Shown here: piece by piece, positions 7,999 through 23,423 of the stretch
Numbering within the stretch: the first letter of the stretch is position 1
How the letters are laid out: each line of letters begins with the position of its first letter
Source of the DNA: Thioalkalivibrio sp. ALJ21
GTDB lineage: Bacteria > Pseudomonadota > Gammaproteobacteria > Ectothiorhodospirales > Ectothiorhodospiraceae
DNA: 64,000 nucleotides
NCBI RefSeq assembly: GCF_000378605.1
Contig: NZ_KB905156.1
Location: 973,209-1,037,208, forward strand
Direction of reading: 5' to 3'
Notes under the pieces: generated by a model
Seen by the model: the letters and a program-made list of their open reading frames with translations, nothing else
The model's database searches: none
Told to the model about the DNA's origin: nothing
Translations under genes and position numbers: made by a program

Positions 7999-9354
7999 AT
8001 GGCGGGCAAGCGCGCCGGACGGATCGTACCCTCGCGGGTGGACTCGCGCTCCCCGCGTCAGCGAGCTCTGGAGGCCGCCGAGGGTGTCGTATTGCAGGGG
8101 CATTCCCTGACGCGCGCGGTGGAGCACGCAACCGAGGGGCTGAACGCCCGCGACGCGGCCTGGGTGCAGGCGCTGGCCTATACCACGCTTCGCTGGTATC
8201 CACAGCTGTCGGCACTGGTGAACGGTTTCCTGGAGCGCCCGCTGCGCAAGAAAGACGCCGTGATCGGTGTGCTGCTGGCGCAGGGGCTGGCCGAGCTGAT
8301 GCATTTCTCCACCCGCGACCACGCGGCCGTGCGCGAGACCGCGGAGCTGGCGCGGGCCATCCATCGCCCCGGTGCGGTGGGGCTGATCAATGCGGTCCTG
8401 CGGCGCGCGCAGCGCGAGCAGGATGCGCTGGAGGCGGCAGTCCGGGAAGACCCGGCGCTGCGTTACGCCGTTCCGGAATGGCTGCTGGAGGCGATCCAGG
8501 CCTCCTGGCCCGACGACTGGGAGACGTTGCTGGAGGCGGCCACCCGTCCCGCACCCATGACCCTGCGCGTGAACCTGTCTCGCACCTCGCGCGAGGACGC
8601 CCTCCAGGCACTGGTCGCGGCGGGGCACCCGGCACAGGCGCATCCTCAGCTGGGGGCTGCCCTGACACTGGCCGAACCCGCCGACGTCGCCCGGCTGCCC
8701 GGTTTTGCCGAGGGCCGGCTCTCGGTGCAGGACGCCTCTGCGCAATGGGCGGCGGTCCTGCTTGATCCGCAGCCGGGCGAGCGCGTGCTGGATGCCTGTG
8801 CGGCCCCGGGCGGCAAGACCGGTCATCTGCTGGAACGGGCGGGTGGCGATCTCCGTCTCACTGCGCTGGACAGCGACGCCGAGCGCCTGGTGCAGGTGAG
8901 CGAAAACCTCGACCGCCTGGGCTTCGCCACGCAGCTGACCGCGGCCGATGTCGCCGACCCTGATGCCTGGTGGGATGACCAGCCCTTCGATGCGATCCTG
9001 CTGGATGTCCCCTGCTCCGCGACCGGGGTGATCCGGCGTCACCCGGACATCAAGACCCTGCGCCGCGCCGACGATATTCCGCGCCTGGCGGCGGAGCAGG
9101 CGCGCATTCTGGAGGCCGCCTGGGGGCTGCTGCGTCCCGGCGGACGCCTGCTGTATGCGACCTGCTCACTGTTGTCCGAGGAGAACGACGCGGTGGTCGC
9201 AAACTTTCTCGAGCGGATGCCGGCTGCCCGAGCGCTGGAGCCCGAGGGCGGTCCACCGATCGCCGGCGCGCACGTTCGCTCGGTCGGCTGGGCGCTGCCG
9301 CTGGGGCTGGAAGGCGGCGATGGCTTCTACTACGCGCTGTTGACAAAGGACTAG
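7999..9354 (+). CDS. rsmB: 16S rRNA (cytosine(967)-C(5))-methyltransferase
   Basis: 451 residues. An N-terminal NusB-like RNA-binding domain (about 15-145) precedes the SAM-dependent methyltransferase domain with CAAPGGKTGHLL (SAM loop), DVPCSATGVIRRHPDIK (PC motif) and LLYATCS (TC motif); the two cysteines are the catalytic pair of the RsmB/Sun family. It methylates C967 of 16S rRNA. It is the third gene of the def-fmt-rsmB operon and lies 3 bases before the DUF4390 gene. Confidence 0.96.
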   Translation: MAGKRAGRIVPSRVDSRSPRQRALEAAEGVVLQGHSLTRAVEHATEGLNARDAAWVQALAYTTLRWYPQLSALVNGFLERPLRKKDAVIGVLLAQGLAELMHFSTRDHAAVRETAELARAIHRPGAVGLINAVLRRAQREQDALEAAVREDPALRYAVPEWLLEAIQASWPDDWETLLEAATRPAPMTLRVNLSRTSREDALQALVAAGHPAQAHPQLGAALTLAEPADVARLPGFAEGRLSVQDASAQWAAVLLDPQPGERVLDACAAPGGKTGHLLERAGGDLRLTALDSDAERLVQVSENLDRLGFATQLTAADVADPDAWWDDQPFDAILLDVPCSATGVIRRHPDIKTLRRADDIPRLAAEQARILEAAWGLLRPGGRLLYATCSLLSEENDAVVANFLERMPAARALEPEGGPPIAGAHVRSVGWALPLGLEGGDGFYYALLTKD

Positions 9355-9357
9355 GGC

Positions 9358-9927
9358 ATGCGCGCGGGGCGGTCGCCGATCGGATTCCTGCTGGCATGGT
9401 CACTCGTGCTGGCGCTGGCCCCGGGTACGGCGCAGGCCCTGGAGATCCGCGACGCCCGGCACATGTGGATGGACGATGACACCCTGCTGGTGCGCCTCGT
9501 GCTCGACATGCGACTGCCGCAAGTGCTGGAAGACGCGCTGGCCAACGGGGTCACGCTGGAGTTCGAGGCCGAGGCCCGGATCGAACGGGATCGCTGGCTG
9601 GGCCGGGAGTCCGTGCAGCACGAGACACGCCGGGTCAAGCTGCAATATTTTGCGCTGAACCGGTATTACCTGGTAACCGACGTGAACGACGACCGGATGG
9701 AGCTCAAGCCGACCCTGGGCGATGCCCTGGAGTATGTGGCCCGCCGACTCGGGCGCCTGCCGATGCATGGCGTCCCGGGGGCGGTGCGCGAGCGGCCGGA
9801 GGACTACAACATGGCCGCGCGGCTGTTGCTCGTGTATTCGGCGCTGCCCTTGCCGCTGCAGCTGGATGCCGGTCTGCGCGGTGACCTCACCACCCGGCGG
9901 GAGTGGCATCGATGGTCCCTGGATTAG
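9358..9927 (+). CDS. DUF4390 domain exported protein
   Basis: 189 residues with a cleavable-looking signal peptide (hydrophobic stretch to PGTAQA near residue 26). The rest is a single DUF4390 domain; its function is unknown, but the gene regularly precedes ntrY in gammaproteobacteria. The TAG stop (9925-9927) consists of a T from the host sequence and the first two bases of the inserted repeat element. Before the insertion the stop would have been TAA at the same codon, so the protein itself is intact. Confidence 0.88.
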   Translation: MRAGRSPIGFLLAWSLVLALAPGTAQALEIRDARHMWMDDDTLLVRLVLDMRLPQVLEDALANGVTLEFEAEARIERDRWLGRESVQHETRRVKLQYFALNRYYLVTDVNDDRMELKPTLGDALEYVARRLGRLPMHGVPGAVRERPEDYNMAARLLLVYSALPLPLQLDAGLRGDLTTRREWHRWSLD

Positions 9928-10224
9928 GGAAACGCTGGTCAATGTACACGCTCGCTGCTTCGTCGCTTTTGCGTGCGAACAAGGCGCGGCGACTGCCGTG
10001 CAGTCATTCTGCACAAGGGAGCCGCAACGCCGTGCGCATGCCCGTTTTTGATAACAGCGGGCGGCCGAGCCCCGGCATTCAATCGCTGGTGGGGTTGGTA
10101 CCCCAGGTTCCCCGATCCTGCGTTGCGCCACTTGCCGGTAGAACCACTACCGGCTGCACGGCGCACCTTGTCTCGGAAAACCTGGGTTACCAACGCGAGT
10201 GTGTACATTGATCAGCGTTTCCCT
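9926..10224. mobile_element. MITE-like element, full copy 1 (299 bp)
   Basis: Bounded by terminal inverted repeats of about 30 bases that start AGGGAAACGCTG and end with the complementary CGTTTCCCT; the arms also share TCAATGTACAC and CTCGC blocks. It is homologous over its full length to 23125-23423, which has the same size. TA flanks both sides (9925-9926 and 10224-10225), consistent with a TA target duplication as made by Tc1/mariner/IS630-type transposases. No transposase is encoded; short frames in either direction are not plausible genes. Internal hairpins are at 9998-10014 and 10134-10154. Confidence 0.85.
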
Positions 10225-12418
10225 AAGACGCTTCCCATGGGGCCTGCTGGGCATGGGCCTGCTGTTCCTGCTGCTGCTGACCTCGCTGGTGGTCATGGGC
10301 GGGGCGGCGCAGGACCAGGCCCGCTTCGAGCAGCTGTTCCTGTGGCTGCTGGTATTCCACGCCGCGATCCTGCTGGTACTGGGTGGCCTGATCGTCCACC
10401 AGTTCGTGCGCATGGTCGCCCAGTATCGCCAGGGCGTGCCCGGCAGTCGCCTGACGTTGCGGCTGGTCGGGGGCTTTATGCTGGTGGCGGTCCTGCCGGT
10501 CTCGGTCGTCTACTATTTCTCCTTCGAGTTCCTGAACGAGGGCGTGGACTCCTGGTTCGACGTGCGCGTGGACTCCGCGCTGGAGGATGCCCTGGAGCTG
10601 TCGCGTTCGTCGCTGGATCTGCGTGTGCGCCAGCTGGCGACCGAGACGCAGGAGATGATGAGCGAGCTGGAAGGGGTCTCGGAGGGCCTGGTTCCGCTGG
10701 CGTTGAATGACTACCGCCGTCAGGTTGGGGCCCAGGAGTTGACGCTGGTCGGCTCCAACAACCGCATCATTGCCTCCTCCACCGACAGCCCGATCCGCCG
10801 CCTGCCGAGTCCCCCGGGGGCCGATATCCTGATGCGCGTGCGCCCGGAGCAGCCGTATTCGCGCCTGGAACCGCAGACCGACGGCTCGCTGGTCATTCGC
10901 GTGGTGGCTACCACCAGCAGTCGAAGACCGGGGGCGGAGAACCGCATCCTGCAGGGGATCTACCCGGTCGACCCGCGCATGTCGGCCTTGTCGCAACGCG
11001 TGGAGGACGCCTTTGCCGGCTACCGCGAATTCGCCTACCTGCGCGGCCCGATCATCCAGGGCTTTATCTTCACCCTGTCGCTGGCGCTGGCGATCTCGCT
11101 GATGGCGGCCCTGTGGGCCGGGCTGCTGGTGGCAAGGCGCATGGTGCGTCCGATCTCCGATCTGGTGCAGGGGACACGGCTGGTGGCCGCTGGCGACTAT
11201 TCCACCCGGCTCGCGGTGCAGCGGGCGGACGAACTGGGCTTTCTGGTGCAGTCGTTCAACGCCATGACGCGCACGCTGAATGAGGCGCGTGACGAGGCCG
11301 AGCGCAACCGCCGCCTGCTGGATGCCGAGCGCGCCTACCTGGAGAGTGTCCTGCAGCACCTGCGCTCCGGCGTGCTCGCGCTGGATGGCAGTCTGCGCCT
11401 TCGTACCGCGAACGAGGCCGCCGGCCAAATCCTGGAGTGCGACCTGCAGGGCGCTCGCACGCGTCCGATCTCCGAGCTGGGCGCCGAGTGTCCGCTGGTC
11501 GGGCAATTCTTCGAGGCGATCAACGATGCCCTGGCGCGCCAGGAAGACGAGTGGTCACGGCAGGTCGTCGTGTTTACCCGTTCCGGGCGCAAGGTGCTGA
11601 TGACGCGTGCCGTCTGGCTGCCGACCTCGGGCTCCAGCCGAGGCCTGCACGCGATCGTGTTCGATGACATGACCGAGTTCCTGAAGGCGCAGCGCGATGC
11701 GGCCTGGGGCGAGGTGGCCCGGCGTCTGGCACACGAGATCAAGAACCCGCTGACCCCGATCCAGCTATCCGCCGAGCGTCTGTCGCGCCGGTTGGGCAAG
11801 GTCCTCGACGGGGCCGACCGCGATGTCCTGGATCGCGCGACGGGCACGATCATTCAGCAGGTGGAGGCAATGAAGACGCTGGTCAACGCCTTCCGCGACT
11901 ACGCCCAGGCCCCGCGCCTGGAGCTGGGATCGGTGGACCTGAACCAGCTGATCCAGGATGTCTGCGAGCTGTATGTCGATTCCGACGGCCATTCCCGTGT
12001 GCAGACCGACCTCGAGCCGGACCTGCCCGGGATTCGGGGTGACGCCGGACGCCTGCGACAGCTGCTGCACAACCTGATCAAGAACGCGCTGGAGGCTGGC
12101 AAAGACCAGGAGGCCTTCGTGGTGCATATCGCCACTGCCTATCTGGACGATCCGACTGGGCCGCATATCGAGCTGCGGGTGACCGACACGGGCCCGGGGA
12201 TCAAGCCCGAGCTGCTGGAACGCATCTTCGAGCCCTACACCACCGACAAGCCGCGTGGAACCGGTCTCGGTTTGGCGGTCGCGCAGAAGATCGTCGAGGA
12301 ACATGGCGGCATGATTGAGTGCCATAATGAACCGGCGGGCGAAGGTGGGGCGGTTTTCCGCATTCGCATCCCGGTCGAACATACCCCGCAGGCCCTGGCC
12401 CACGAGGAACCGGAATGA
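10199..12418 (+). CDS. ntrY: NtrY-type sensor histidine kinase
   Basis: 739 residues as read. Hydrophobic N-terminal helices (about 13-38, 45-68, 85-108) and one at about 285-315 flank an extracytoplasmic region, then HAMP, PAS, the HisKA box with the phospho-accepting His in RRLAHEIKNPLTP, and a HATPase domain with GTGLGL. The present start is imposed by the inserted repeat: GTG 10199 or TTG 10208 lie inside the element, and the first in-frame ATG is 10253. The ancestral start was probably ATG 9912. The stop overlaps ntrX by 4 bases. NtrYX systems are linked to nitrogen, redox and envelope control. Confidence 0.92.
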   Translation: MCTLISVSLRRFPWGLLGMGLLFLLLLTSLVVMGGAAQDQARFEQLFLWLLVFHAAILLVLGGLIVHQFVRMVAQYRQGVPGSRLTLRLVGGFMLVAVLPVSVVYYFSFEFLNEGVDSWFDVRVDSALEDALELSRSSLDLRVRQLATETQEMMSELEGVSEGLVPLALNDYRRQVGAQELTLVGSNNRIIASSTDSPIRRLPSPPGADILMRVRPEQPYSRLEPQTDGSLVIRVVATTSSRRPGAENRILQGIYPVDPRMSALSQRVEDAFAGYREFAYLRGPIIQGFIFTLSLALAISLMAALWAGLLVARRMVRPISDLVQGTRLVAAGDYSTRLAVQRADELGFLVQSFNAMTRTLNEARDEAERNRRLLDAERAYLESVLQHLRSGVLALDGSLRLRTANEAAGQILECDLQGARTRPISELGAECPLVGQFFEAINDALARQEDEWSRQVVVFTRSGRKVLMTRAVWLPTSGSSRGLHAIVFDDMTEFLKAQRDAAWGEVARRLAHEIKNPLTPIQLSAERLSRRLGKVLDGADRDVLDRATGTIIQQVEAMKTLVNAFRDYAQAPRLELGSVDLNQLIQDVCELYVDSDGHSRVQTDLEPDLPGIRGDAGRLRQLLHNLIKNALEAGKDQEAFVVHIATAYLDDPTGPHIELRVTDTGPGIKPELLERIFEPYTTDKPRGTGLGLAVAQKIVEEHGGMIECHNEPAGEGGAVFRIRIPVEHTPQALAHEEPE

Positions 12419-13794
12419 GCGAACCGTACGTACTGGTCGTCGACGACGAACCGGATATCCGGATGCTGCTGCAGGATGTCCTCGAGGACGAGGGCTACCA
12501 GGTGGCGCTGGCCGGCTCGGTGGCCGAGGCCAAGGCCCAGCGCCGCAGCCGCCGGCCGGATCTGATCCTCCTCGACGTCTGGATGCCGGATGGCGACGGG
12601 ATCTCCCTGCTCAAGGAGTGGGGCGACGACGAAGGTCTGCCCTGTCCGGTGGTGATGATCTCCGGCCACGGCAACGTGGAGACCGCCGTCGATGCCACCC
12701 GCCTGGGCGCCTACGACTTCATCGAAAAGCCGCTGTCGATAGACAAGCTGCTGATTACGCTGAACAACGCCCTGGAGGCCGCCCGCCTGCAGCGCGAGAA
12801 CGTGGGCCTGAAGCGCCATGCCGGCACGGTCGCTGATCCGGTCGGGGGCAGCGCGGTGATGGTGAACCTGCGCGACCAGGTGCAGCGCATGGCGCAACAC
12901 GACACCTGGGTGCTGATTACCGGCGAGCCCGGGGTGGGCAAGCAGACCTTTGCCCGGTTGCTGCATGCGCGTAGTGCGCGGCGGGACAGCCCGTTCATCG
13001 TAGTCTCGGTCGGTTCGCTGTCGGGCGACGAGGCCGTGGCCGAGTTGTTCGGCAGCGAGCAGGGCGATCGGGTGCGCTACGGGCTGCTCGAGCAGGCCGC
13101 CGGTGGCGTGCTGTTCCTCGACGAGGTCGCGGAGATGGACATGCAGACGCAGGGGCGCCTGCTGCATGCCCTGGATACCCAGCGCATTACCCGGATCGGG
13201 GGCGATCAGCCGATCAGCGTCAATGTGCGGGTGATTGCCGCCAGCCAGCATGATCTTGGCGAGGCGGTGGAGCAGGGCCGGTTTCGCGAGGACCTGTACT
13301 ACCGGCTGAACGTCCTGCCGCTGGCGATCCCGCCGCTGCGCGAGCACGCGGAGGACATCCCGGAGCTGCTGGACTACCATATGCGCCATCTGCACCAGCA
13401 GGAAGGCCTGCCGATGCGGCTGTTCCAGCGCCCGGCGCTGGAGCGGCTGCAGCAGTATCAGTGGCCCGGCAACGTGCGCGAGCTGCGTAACCTGGTGCAG
13501 CGACTGATGATCCTCGGCTCCGGTGACGAGATCACCCGCGACGAGGTCGAGCGCACCCTGACCGGCCAGCCGCAGCGCGGCGAGGAGTTCGAGGATGGGG
13601 CACTGGCGATCCCCGACCTGCCGCTGCGCGAGGCGCGCGAGCAGTTCGAGCGCGAGTATCTGATCCAGCAACTGGAGCGCTCGGAAGGCAACATGACACG
13701 GCTGGCCGAGCGGGTGGGGCTGGAGCGCACCCACCTCTATCGCAAGTTCAAGGCACTGGGCATCGATCCAAAACGGGTGAAGGCCGACGGCTGA
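12415..13794 (+). CDS. ntrX: NtrX-type response regulator (NtrC family)
   Basis: 459 residues: receiver domain (1-120) with phospho-acceptor D54 in LILLDVWMPD, AAA+ domain with Walker A GEPGVGKQ at 170-177 and Walker B LFLDEV near 234, and a C-terminal Fis-type helix-turn-helix ending near LERTHLYRKFKALG. The sigma-54-contacting GAFTGA loop is absent: the sequence after ELFGSEQG reads DRVRYG. That is usual for NtrX proteins and suggests that it may not activate sigma-54 promoters in the standard way. It is translationally coupled to ntrY (ATGA). Confidence 0.94.
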   Translation: MSEPYVLVVDDEPDIRMLLQDVLEDEGYQVALAGSVAEAKAQRRSRRPDLILLDVWMPDGDGISLLKEWGDDEGLPCPVVMISGHGNVETAVDATRLGAYDFIEKPLSIDKLLITLNNALEAARLQRENVGLKRHAGTVADPVGGSAVMVNLRDQVQRMAQHDTWVLITGEPGVGKQTFARLLHARSARRDSPFIVVSVGSLSGDEAVAELFGSEQGDRVRYGLLEQAAGGVLFLDEVAEMDMQTQGRLLHALDTQRITRIGGDQPISVNVRVIAASQHDLGEAVEQGRFREDLYYRLNVLPLAIPPLREHAEDIPELLDYHMRHLHQQEGLPMRLFQRPALERLQQYQWPGNVRELRNLVQRLMILGSGDEITRDEVERTLTGQPQRGEEFEDGALAIPDLPLREAREQFEREYLIQQLERSEGNMTRLAERVGLERTHLYRKFKALGIDPKRVKADG

Positions 13795-23124: not shown

Positions 23125-23423
23125 AGGGAAACACTGATCAATGTACACGCTCGCGCTCGAGTCGCTTTTGCGTGCGAACAAGGCGCGGTGAGCGCAGTGT
23201 AGCCGAGCTACATAAGCGAGCCGCAACGCCGTTCGCGCGCCCGTTTTTGATAGCAACGGGCGGCCGAGCCCCTTCGTTCATTAAGTTGTGGGGTTGGCAC
23301 CCCAGGTTCCCCGATCCTGCGTTGCGCCGCTTGCGGGTAGAACCACTACCCGCTGCACGACGCGCCTTGTCTCGGAAAACCTGGGGTACCAACGCGAGCG
23401 TGTACATTGATCAGTGTTTCCCT
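23125..23423. mobile_element. MITE-like element, full copy 2 (299 bp)
   Basis: Same length and same layout as the copy at 9926. The terminal inverted repeats are perfect for about 30 bases, beginning AGGGAAACACTGATCAATG. The flanks are TA on the left (23124-23125) and TG on the right (23423-23424), so a TA duplication is not intact here. Internal hairpins are at 23198-23212 and 23333-23353; their stem bases differ from copy 1 in a compensatory way. It lies between DUF502 (leftward) and the metallo-beta-lactamase-fold gene (rightward), so it may contribute to promoters on both sides. Confidence 0.85.

Follow-up and report, generated by a model that had tools for sequence, protein, structure and literature searches.

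An IS5-type miniature element at the DUF4390–ntrY junction of Thioalkalivibrio carries an open leader frame that probably rebuilds translational coupling

In classical stop-start coupling, as in leader peptides, the TGA of an upstream open reading frame (ORF) overlaps the next start codon (ATGA or TTGA), and translation of that upstream ORF opens a hairpin. Here we describe the same overlap with one difference, namely that a mobile element has supplied the new start codon and the greater part of the leader. The element is a 297-bp miniature inverted-repeat transposable element (MITE) of the type of the insertion sequence (IS) IS5. It lies between the DUF4390 gene and ntrY in a stretch of 64,000 nucleotides from Thioalkalivibrio sp. 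ALJ21, which was analysed as a whole and is referred to as the window. The genome to which the window belongs, G000 in our comparisons, comprises 2.96 Mb in 5 contigs.

Several described element families resemble the one at ntrY. The ERIC elements of enteric bacteria and the Correia elements of Neisseria, which are also MITEs, are similarly short and numerous, with long arms, a strong RNA fold and a location near gene ends. Our element differs from them by its IS5-like YTAR target and its Thioalkalivibrio range. With IS5-family ISs and their MITEs it has the ends and similar target flanks in common, but not the interior, since the MITE shares the ends alone and has a long ORF of its own. MITEPlu5 of Photorhabdus, with IS630-type ends, a TA duplication and a length of 123 bp, is comparable in its many short, foldable copies with IS-shared ends and unlike our element in IS type, duplication and length (PMC6267812). 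In a review on prokaryotic MITEs, ORFs within MITEs and in-frame fusions in Rickettsia are covered, and the terms start codon and stop codon are absent from its main text (PMC10969869). The Rickettsia palindromic elements treated there are MITE-like and have a translatable frame that host genes tolerate, as does our element, but they insert in frame and fuse inside genes, whereas here a separate leader ends on the start of the next gene. No fusion inside a host protein was found at ntrY: DUF4390 stops at the element edge, and leader and ntrY are read in different frames. Among open-licence papers, a search for Thioalkalivibrio MITEs and repeats yielded REP and REPIN work and one Coxiella genome; a MITE that relays translation by a start codon, translational coupling or reinitiation was not met with in that literature, which does not imply its absence from print.

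ORF reading and Pfam searches gave the gene order rsmB, DUF4390, ntrY, ntrX on the + strand (Table 1), with the old ntrY start, ATG 9912, lying within the 3′ end of the DUF4390 gene. The preliminary description of this DNA had proposed that a repeat split an overlapping ntrY start, and that collapse of the repeat together with one TA copy would restore it. Indeed, the close relative G013 (L032), whose DUF4390 is 98.9% identical, lacks the element at this site; its empty-site sequence is ATGGTCCCTGGATTAAGACGC, and its junction, ATGGTCCCTGGATTAAGACGCTTCCC, matches the collapsed window sequence letter for letter. Taking out 299 bp, that is one TA plus the 297 bp, leaves ATG GTC CCT GGA TTA AGA CGC TTC, and the ntrY frame of G013 begins at that ATG (MVPGLRRFPWGLL). 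The overlapping ntrY start is likewise kept in the element-free strains AL2, ALJ7, ALJ24 and HL17, and more distant Thioalkalivibrio show a similar DUF4390/ntrY overlap. The proposed ancestral arrangement thus exists as a real allele.

The window retains both ATG 9912 and its GGGAG Shine-Dalgarno (SD) sequence, with an anti-SD energy of -8.0 kcal/mol that is the same in the empty G013 locus. The frame of this ATG is no longer that of ntrY; instead, it runs for 99 codons through the element to a TGA at 10209-10211, which begins one base into TTG 10208. The old start is therefore out of the kinase frame, as had been noted, but it does not look simply abandoned, since its SD is kept and its frame opens to the TTG start. 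The ntrY site was compared in 15 nearer and 13 more distant loci, and eight of the nearer ones (G000, G005, ARh2, ALJ3, AKL19, ALE31, ALMg11 and ALE14) were found to be occupied, all with the insertion at one and the same TA and in one orientation. All eight have the TTGA stop/start overlap. Their leaders comprise 99, 99, 99, 102, 99, 68, 99 and 104 codons and their elements 297, 297, 297, 306, 297, 204, 297 and 312 bp, so that each of the four distinct element lengths is a multiple of three. The ntrY frame inside the element contains stops in all eight.

The copies elsewhere were different. From G000, G013 and G005 a comparison set of 115 copies was assembled (35 of about 40 full copies were used for each of the latter two genomes), which left 111 other copies when two of less than 190 bp (G000 L187 and L188) and the ntrY copies of G000 and G005 were subtracted. 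The leader frame was open in three of these 111, and none had the same end-to-end route to TTGA. Codon 4 of the element in the leader frame is TGG in 8/8 ntrY copies versus TGA in 93/111 others; codon 22 is CGA in seven ntrY copies, the eighth (ALE31) having a deletion there, versus TGA in 76/111 others. The right arm lacks the mirror of the TGG change in 7/8 copies, where a G.U pair results, and carries it only in ALE31. Because the change is one-sided in the arms, it was probably made after insertion. In four disjoint strain pairs with 120 differences, no new stop had arisen in the leader, versus about 3.94 expected without selection (P ~0.02). Substitutions were spread evenly over the leader codon positions (0.141, 0.122 and 0.122), and the ratio of nonsynonymous to synonymous substitution rates (dN/dS) ranged from 0.56 to 1.5 in five pairs. 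This indicates that the openness of the frame was kept, and not the peptide. Neither the leader nor the minus-strand ORF of the element had a match in Pfam or NCBIfam.

A second arrangement was found in ALJT and ALJ16, sisters in the tree, in which an element of opposite orientation lies about 5 bp away. Here the DUF4390 frame ends in a TGA within the element arm. Counted from the first base of this TGA, an ATG follows 6 nt downstream, and its frame extends across the entire element. This frame (94 and 37 codons) ends in both loci in a TGA that overlaps the ntrY ATG, giving ATGA. As it uses the strand on which most copies of the family are open, this arrangement is less surprising than the same-orientation one. 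The TTGA route in 8/8 ntrY copies versus 0/111 others, together with the ATGA relay of these sisters, leads us to favour a relay through the element. The insertion of the IS5-family MITE hit a YTAR site at which DUF4390 stop and ntrY start overlapped. In the proposed mechanism, ribosomes would start at the old ATG 9912 and translate the leader frame through the element, melting its long hairpin and opening the helix around TTG; termination at TGA 10209-10211 would be followed by re-initiation on TTG 10208, which overlaps this stop and stems from the right arm, and selection would have kept the frame open irrespective of the peptide sequence. On balance we lean towards this coupled translation of ntrY via the leader, with a re-start at the arm TTG and selected openness, each step of which is predicted from sequence. 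Coupling of DUF4390 and ntrY would thus probably have been rebuilt rather than lost.

The reading frames of the whole family bear on this proposal. An arm start codon is present in 92 copies and absent from 19 more. On the minus strand (in the sense of the window copy), an ORF runs from this codon to the far arm or beyond in 80/92 copies, versus 11% when interiors were shuffled in the minus orientation; on the plus strand such an ORF was found in 9/92, versus 14% with shuffled interiors. Co-directional neighbours, called by codon usage on the flanks, run with rather than against the element ORF at ratios of 24:6 in G000, 21:3 in G013 and 22:7 in G005, three genomes that share many sites. The ntrY copy belongs to the minority orientation among co-directional copies. 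In orthologous comparisons, from which 4 pairs and the ntrY pair were left out, the element ORF was intact in all 18 co-directional pairs, which had 189 differences and for which 6.0 stops were expected, versus broken in one member of 4/7 other pairs (92 differences, 2.5 expected). Counted by site, it was broken in a relative at 0/12 co-directional versus 3/5 other sites (p 0.015). Conceivably, though we put this forward tentatively and with more doubt than belief, the MITE family may be translation-transparent, with a coding strand that bears an end-to-end ORF, one arm providing the codon for restart (TGATCAATG) and the stop for exit lying on or close to the start of the following gene. Its members might then sit in operons as translated relays without cutting off downstream genes, operon copies being kept open by selection, and the reverse-orientation ntrY copy would have been opened on its other strand by mutation.

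Separately, in another G000 copy (L023, C2:891084-891368) a gene that by eye resembles a Bcr/CflA transporter appears to start at the arm TTG, like ntrY; no start lies outside the element for 98 nt.

A number of observations speak against the relay. The DUF4390 frame is also stop-free inside the element in 3/8 loci (G000, ARh2 and ALE31), so the leader is not the sole frame to be open. Many family members have a length divisible by three (49/111), CGA at codon 22 also occurs in 28/111 other copies, and TTGA belongs to the consensus arm, its presence by itself being nothing special. The eight loci are related, and after a single insertion the open frame would in part be inherited. For TTG, the SD energy is modest, at -6.0 to -6.5 kcal/mol calculated irrespective of spacing. 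Across the family, intact versus broken ORFs numbered 40/3 and 18/6 by context when orthologues were removed (p 0.06), and the distance from the leader stop to the downstream start as called was at most 8 nt in 10/31 groups versus 8/62 for the other frames (p 0.043; for genes called no further than 60 nt away and intact ORFs with a start). Passability in any frame was independent of context after removal of orthologues, both strands passing in most contexts, and it failed as a context test.

Some of these points suit a different explanation, in which the MITE uncoupled the two genes: NtrY would start independently at TTG 10208 with the modest arm SD and at a reduced level, and the open leader would be an inherited accident. 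A TTG with a GAG/GAGG-like SD is present, the leader peptide is not conserved, the DUF4390 frame shares the openness in the three loci named, and clades A and B have TGG, mostly CGA, and the orientation in common, which fits one insertion. We nevertheless regard uncoupling as rather unlikely. An accident would have to account for an open route that is seen in none of the other copies, for the lack of any stop among the 120 differences and for four element lengths that are all multiples of three. Moreover, TTG and its SD lie within a very stable predicted helix, and a similar relay recurs in the opposite-orientation insertion.

Reading of ntrY could begin at GTG 10199, from which its frame is open, or at TTG 10208 or ATG 10253, and these three had been proposed as the present start. 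Only TTG 10208 was kept as a candidate in 8/8 same-orientation loci; GTG 10199 occurs in 3/8, and ATG 10253 is limited to the four clade-A strains. From TTG, NtrY reads MISVSLRRFPWGLLGMGLLFLLLL, versus MVPGLRRFPWGLLGMGLLFLLLL in the empty relative, and the first few residues alone differ. As the N-terminus then begins MISVSLRRFPWGLL with its membrane segment untouched, the earlier suggestion of an altered first membrane helix was not supported. A displaced start might also mean that ntrY is degenerating or unexpressed in element strains, so that its start would be irrelevant. We consider this highly improbable, because the ORF is intact (739 codons counted from GTG) and encodes HAMP, HisKA and HATPase domains, and because the protein is 98% identical to those of ARh2 and ALJ3, both of which bear the element.

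Table 1. Positions of genes, reading frames and element parts around the DUF4390–ntrY junction of the window.
Feature	Position	Strand	Evidence or remark
rsmB (16S rRNA methyltransferase RsmB/F)	7999..9354	+	Pfam PF01189, 187 bits
DUF4390 gene; stop TAG 9925-9927 formed at element edge	9358..9927	+	Pfam PF14334, 84 bits
GGGAG SD of old ntrY start, 8 nt 5′ of ATG	9899..9903	+	anti-SD duplex -8.0 kcal/mol
Leader ORF, 99 codons, from old ntrY ATG through element; stop TGA 10209-10211	9912..10211	+	open in 8/8 same-orientation ntrY-site copies
Left flank 4-mer TTAG (TA 9925-9926)	9924..9927	.	G013 empty site = TTAA
IS5-type MITE, 297 bp (GGG...CCC)	9927..10223	+	family ORF on minus strand
Left inverted-repeat arm	9927..9955	+	
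Leader codon TGG; TGA there in 93/111 other copies	9936..9938	+	
Leader codon CGA; others TGA 76/111, CGA 28/111	9990..9992	+	
Element family ORF, ATG within arm	9939..10208	-	
Right inverted-repeat arm; GCGAG 10195-10199 = candidate modest SD for TTG 10208	10195..10223	+	
ntrY from candidate element-supplied TTG 10208, TTGA overlap with leader stop	10208..12418	+	PF19312 NtrY_N, HAMP, HisKA, HATPase_c
Right flank 4-mer CTAA	10223..10226	.	
NtrX-type response regulator, ATGA overlap with ntrY	12415..13794	+	PF00158, PF00072; NtrX name inferred from place

Correia and ERIC elements offer a precedent for arm helices that are cut by RNase III or that block translation, and the element might accordingly act on ntrY mainly as an RNA structure. 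Its inverted arms (9924-9955 and 10195-10226, each about 30 bp) are 94% complementary; the arms pair over most of 30 bp within the copies listed and are mirrored copy by copy. The predicted fold of -198.6 kcal/mol compares with -141.4 (standard deviation 6) in 100 shuffles (z -9.5), and TTG lies inside a helix in all eight predicted folds. Between orthologous copies, however, 41 arm changes were one-sided, versus 7 compensatory changes, all in one pair, and 4 double changes that did not keep the pair. This indicates that the mirroring was mostly inherited from the copy that jumped and that pairing is not visibly maintained in place. Selection for arm pairing was dropped as the main explanation, since orthologues change one arm at a time. 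A pattern scan of the element region revealed no promoter or terminator, and Rfam gave no match at gathering score, two microRNA matches (E 0.47 and 0.61) falling far below theirs. A mainly structural role is thus improbable, and the relay is preferred to it.

The assignment of the element to the IS5-type MITEs was based on its copies and ends. A search of G000 with the element gave 40 full or nearly full copies (the best 40 of 85 candidates scored), and a further 5 that were recognised from their ends brought the number with both ends available for analysis to 45. The arm pattern matched four times within the window, in two copies with two arms each, versus 0.00 expected in shuffles, and is thus not due to chance. 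The second copy, at 23126-23422, has fully consensus arms and a target duplication eroded on one side. A 1.2-kb IS is present in three copies in G005, with related ones in G015, G009 and G011, and has element-like ends and mostly TA-centred flanks. With one end of the G005 IS, the right end of the element agrees at 18/18 and the left end at 17/18 bases, the other IS end being less alike. In G011, the related copy encodes a transposase of 322 aa (L279) that matched NCBIfam NF033581 with 270 bits versus a cut-off of 140, and the IS copies of G005, G009 and G015 surround PF01609 matches. The ends that the element has in common with an IS encoding an IS5-family transposase identify it as an IS5-family MITE. 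MITE and IS are alike in their ends only, the MITE bearing its own long ORF, and the many dispersed copies in G000 lack a transposase, as is characteristic of a MITE. No PF01609 (DDE_Tnp_1) or PF13358 match was detected in the G000 genome, so an IS630-type transposase (PF13358) was rejected as a resident partner, and by these profiles the element is without a resident partner of either kind there. With part of the candidates scored in many genomes, the element was found in 16/30 Thioalkalivibrio genomes and, scored likewise in part, in 0/17 genomes from four further genera of the same bacterial family; collections of plasmids and phages gave no match.

As to the target, removal of one TA with the 297 bp restores the empty site exactly. 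Many copies of the family, however, appear to duplicate 4 bp (YTAR) instead of 2 bp. Identical 4-mers flank 20/101 copies, and the outer positions of the flank 4-mers are correlated (p 2e-6 and 1e-4; 101 of the 115 copies, orthologues included). At ntrY the flanks, TTAG and CTAA, are not identical, and the empty site of G013 is TTAA. YTAR is strongly avoided in the 64-kb window, with 39 sites versus 182 expected from dinucleotides, and at least 8 of these sites lie on stop codons according to a crude gene call that missed rsmB. Such scarcity, partly on stop codons, helps to explain repeated insertion at one stop codon.

The nearer loci that lack the same-orientation element comprise the two with the opposite orientation and five empty ones (G013, AL2, ALJ7, ALJ24 and HL17); all 13 more distant loci compared are without it at the ntrY site. 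In a tree of the flanks, G013 grouped with G000 and G005 (100/100), G000 with G005 (80/83), and AL2 was sister to ALMg11 (100/99). Because empty loci are scattered in this tree, loss or allele replacement is likely for G013, where the element may have been excised or the locus replaced by an empty allele. No clear donor of such an allele emerged from flank identities at G013. The AL2 allele, GGACTGA, is without the TA, and a replaced or never-occupied allele therefore fits better than simple excision. Common position, orientation and codon changes favour one insertion event for clades A and B, while the tree of element copies, being weak and mosaic, leaves one versus separate insertions unsettled. 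The ntrY-site elements of G000 and G005 (L209) are 83% identical, with nearly identical arms, in flanks of 95-98% identity; other copies may thus have converted the element, or it may have re-inserted.

Variants of the element were also observed. Solo 26-bp palindromes (AGGGAAACRCTGATCAGYGTTTCCCT) occur in G000 at C1:168301, C1:303165 and C1:761647 (L189-L191) and look like two element ends joined without an interior; they may have arisen by extreme deletion or constitute a tiny element of their own. In L266 of G005, at about 1302-1314, 12 bases 5′ of a full IS5-type copy resemble the terminus of an element (agcgtttcccta), as though a MITE edge had served the IS as target. The copies L017, L176, L179, L181 and L183 form a subfamily whose arms differ (GGGARACRC.GATT.AATCGC) and are in most cases mirrored at the two ends.

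At the ntrY locus, a mobile element has thus naturally broken a stop-start overlap, among the commonest features of bacterial operons, and in two arrangements the element itself appears to have served to restore the coupling. For the annotation of these strains it carries a warning, as the NtrY start is probably a TTG inside a repeat. It also suggests a testable rule, namely that operons tolerate small mobile elements that ribosomes can pass.

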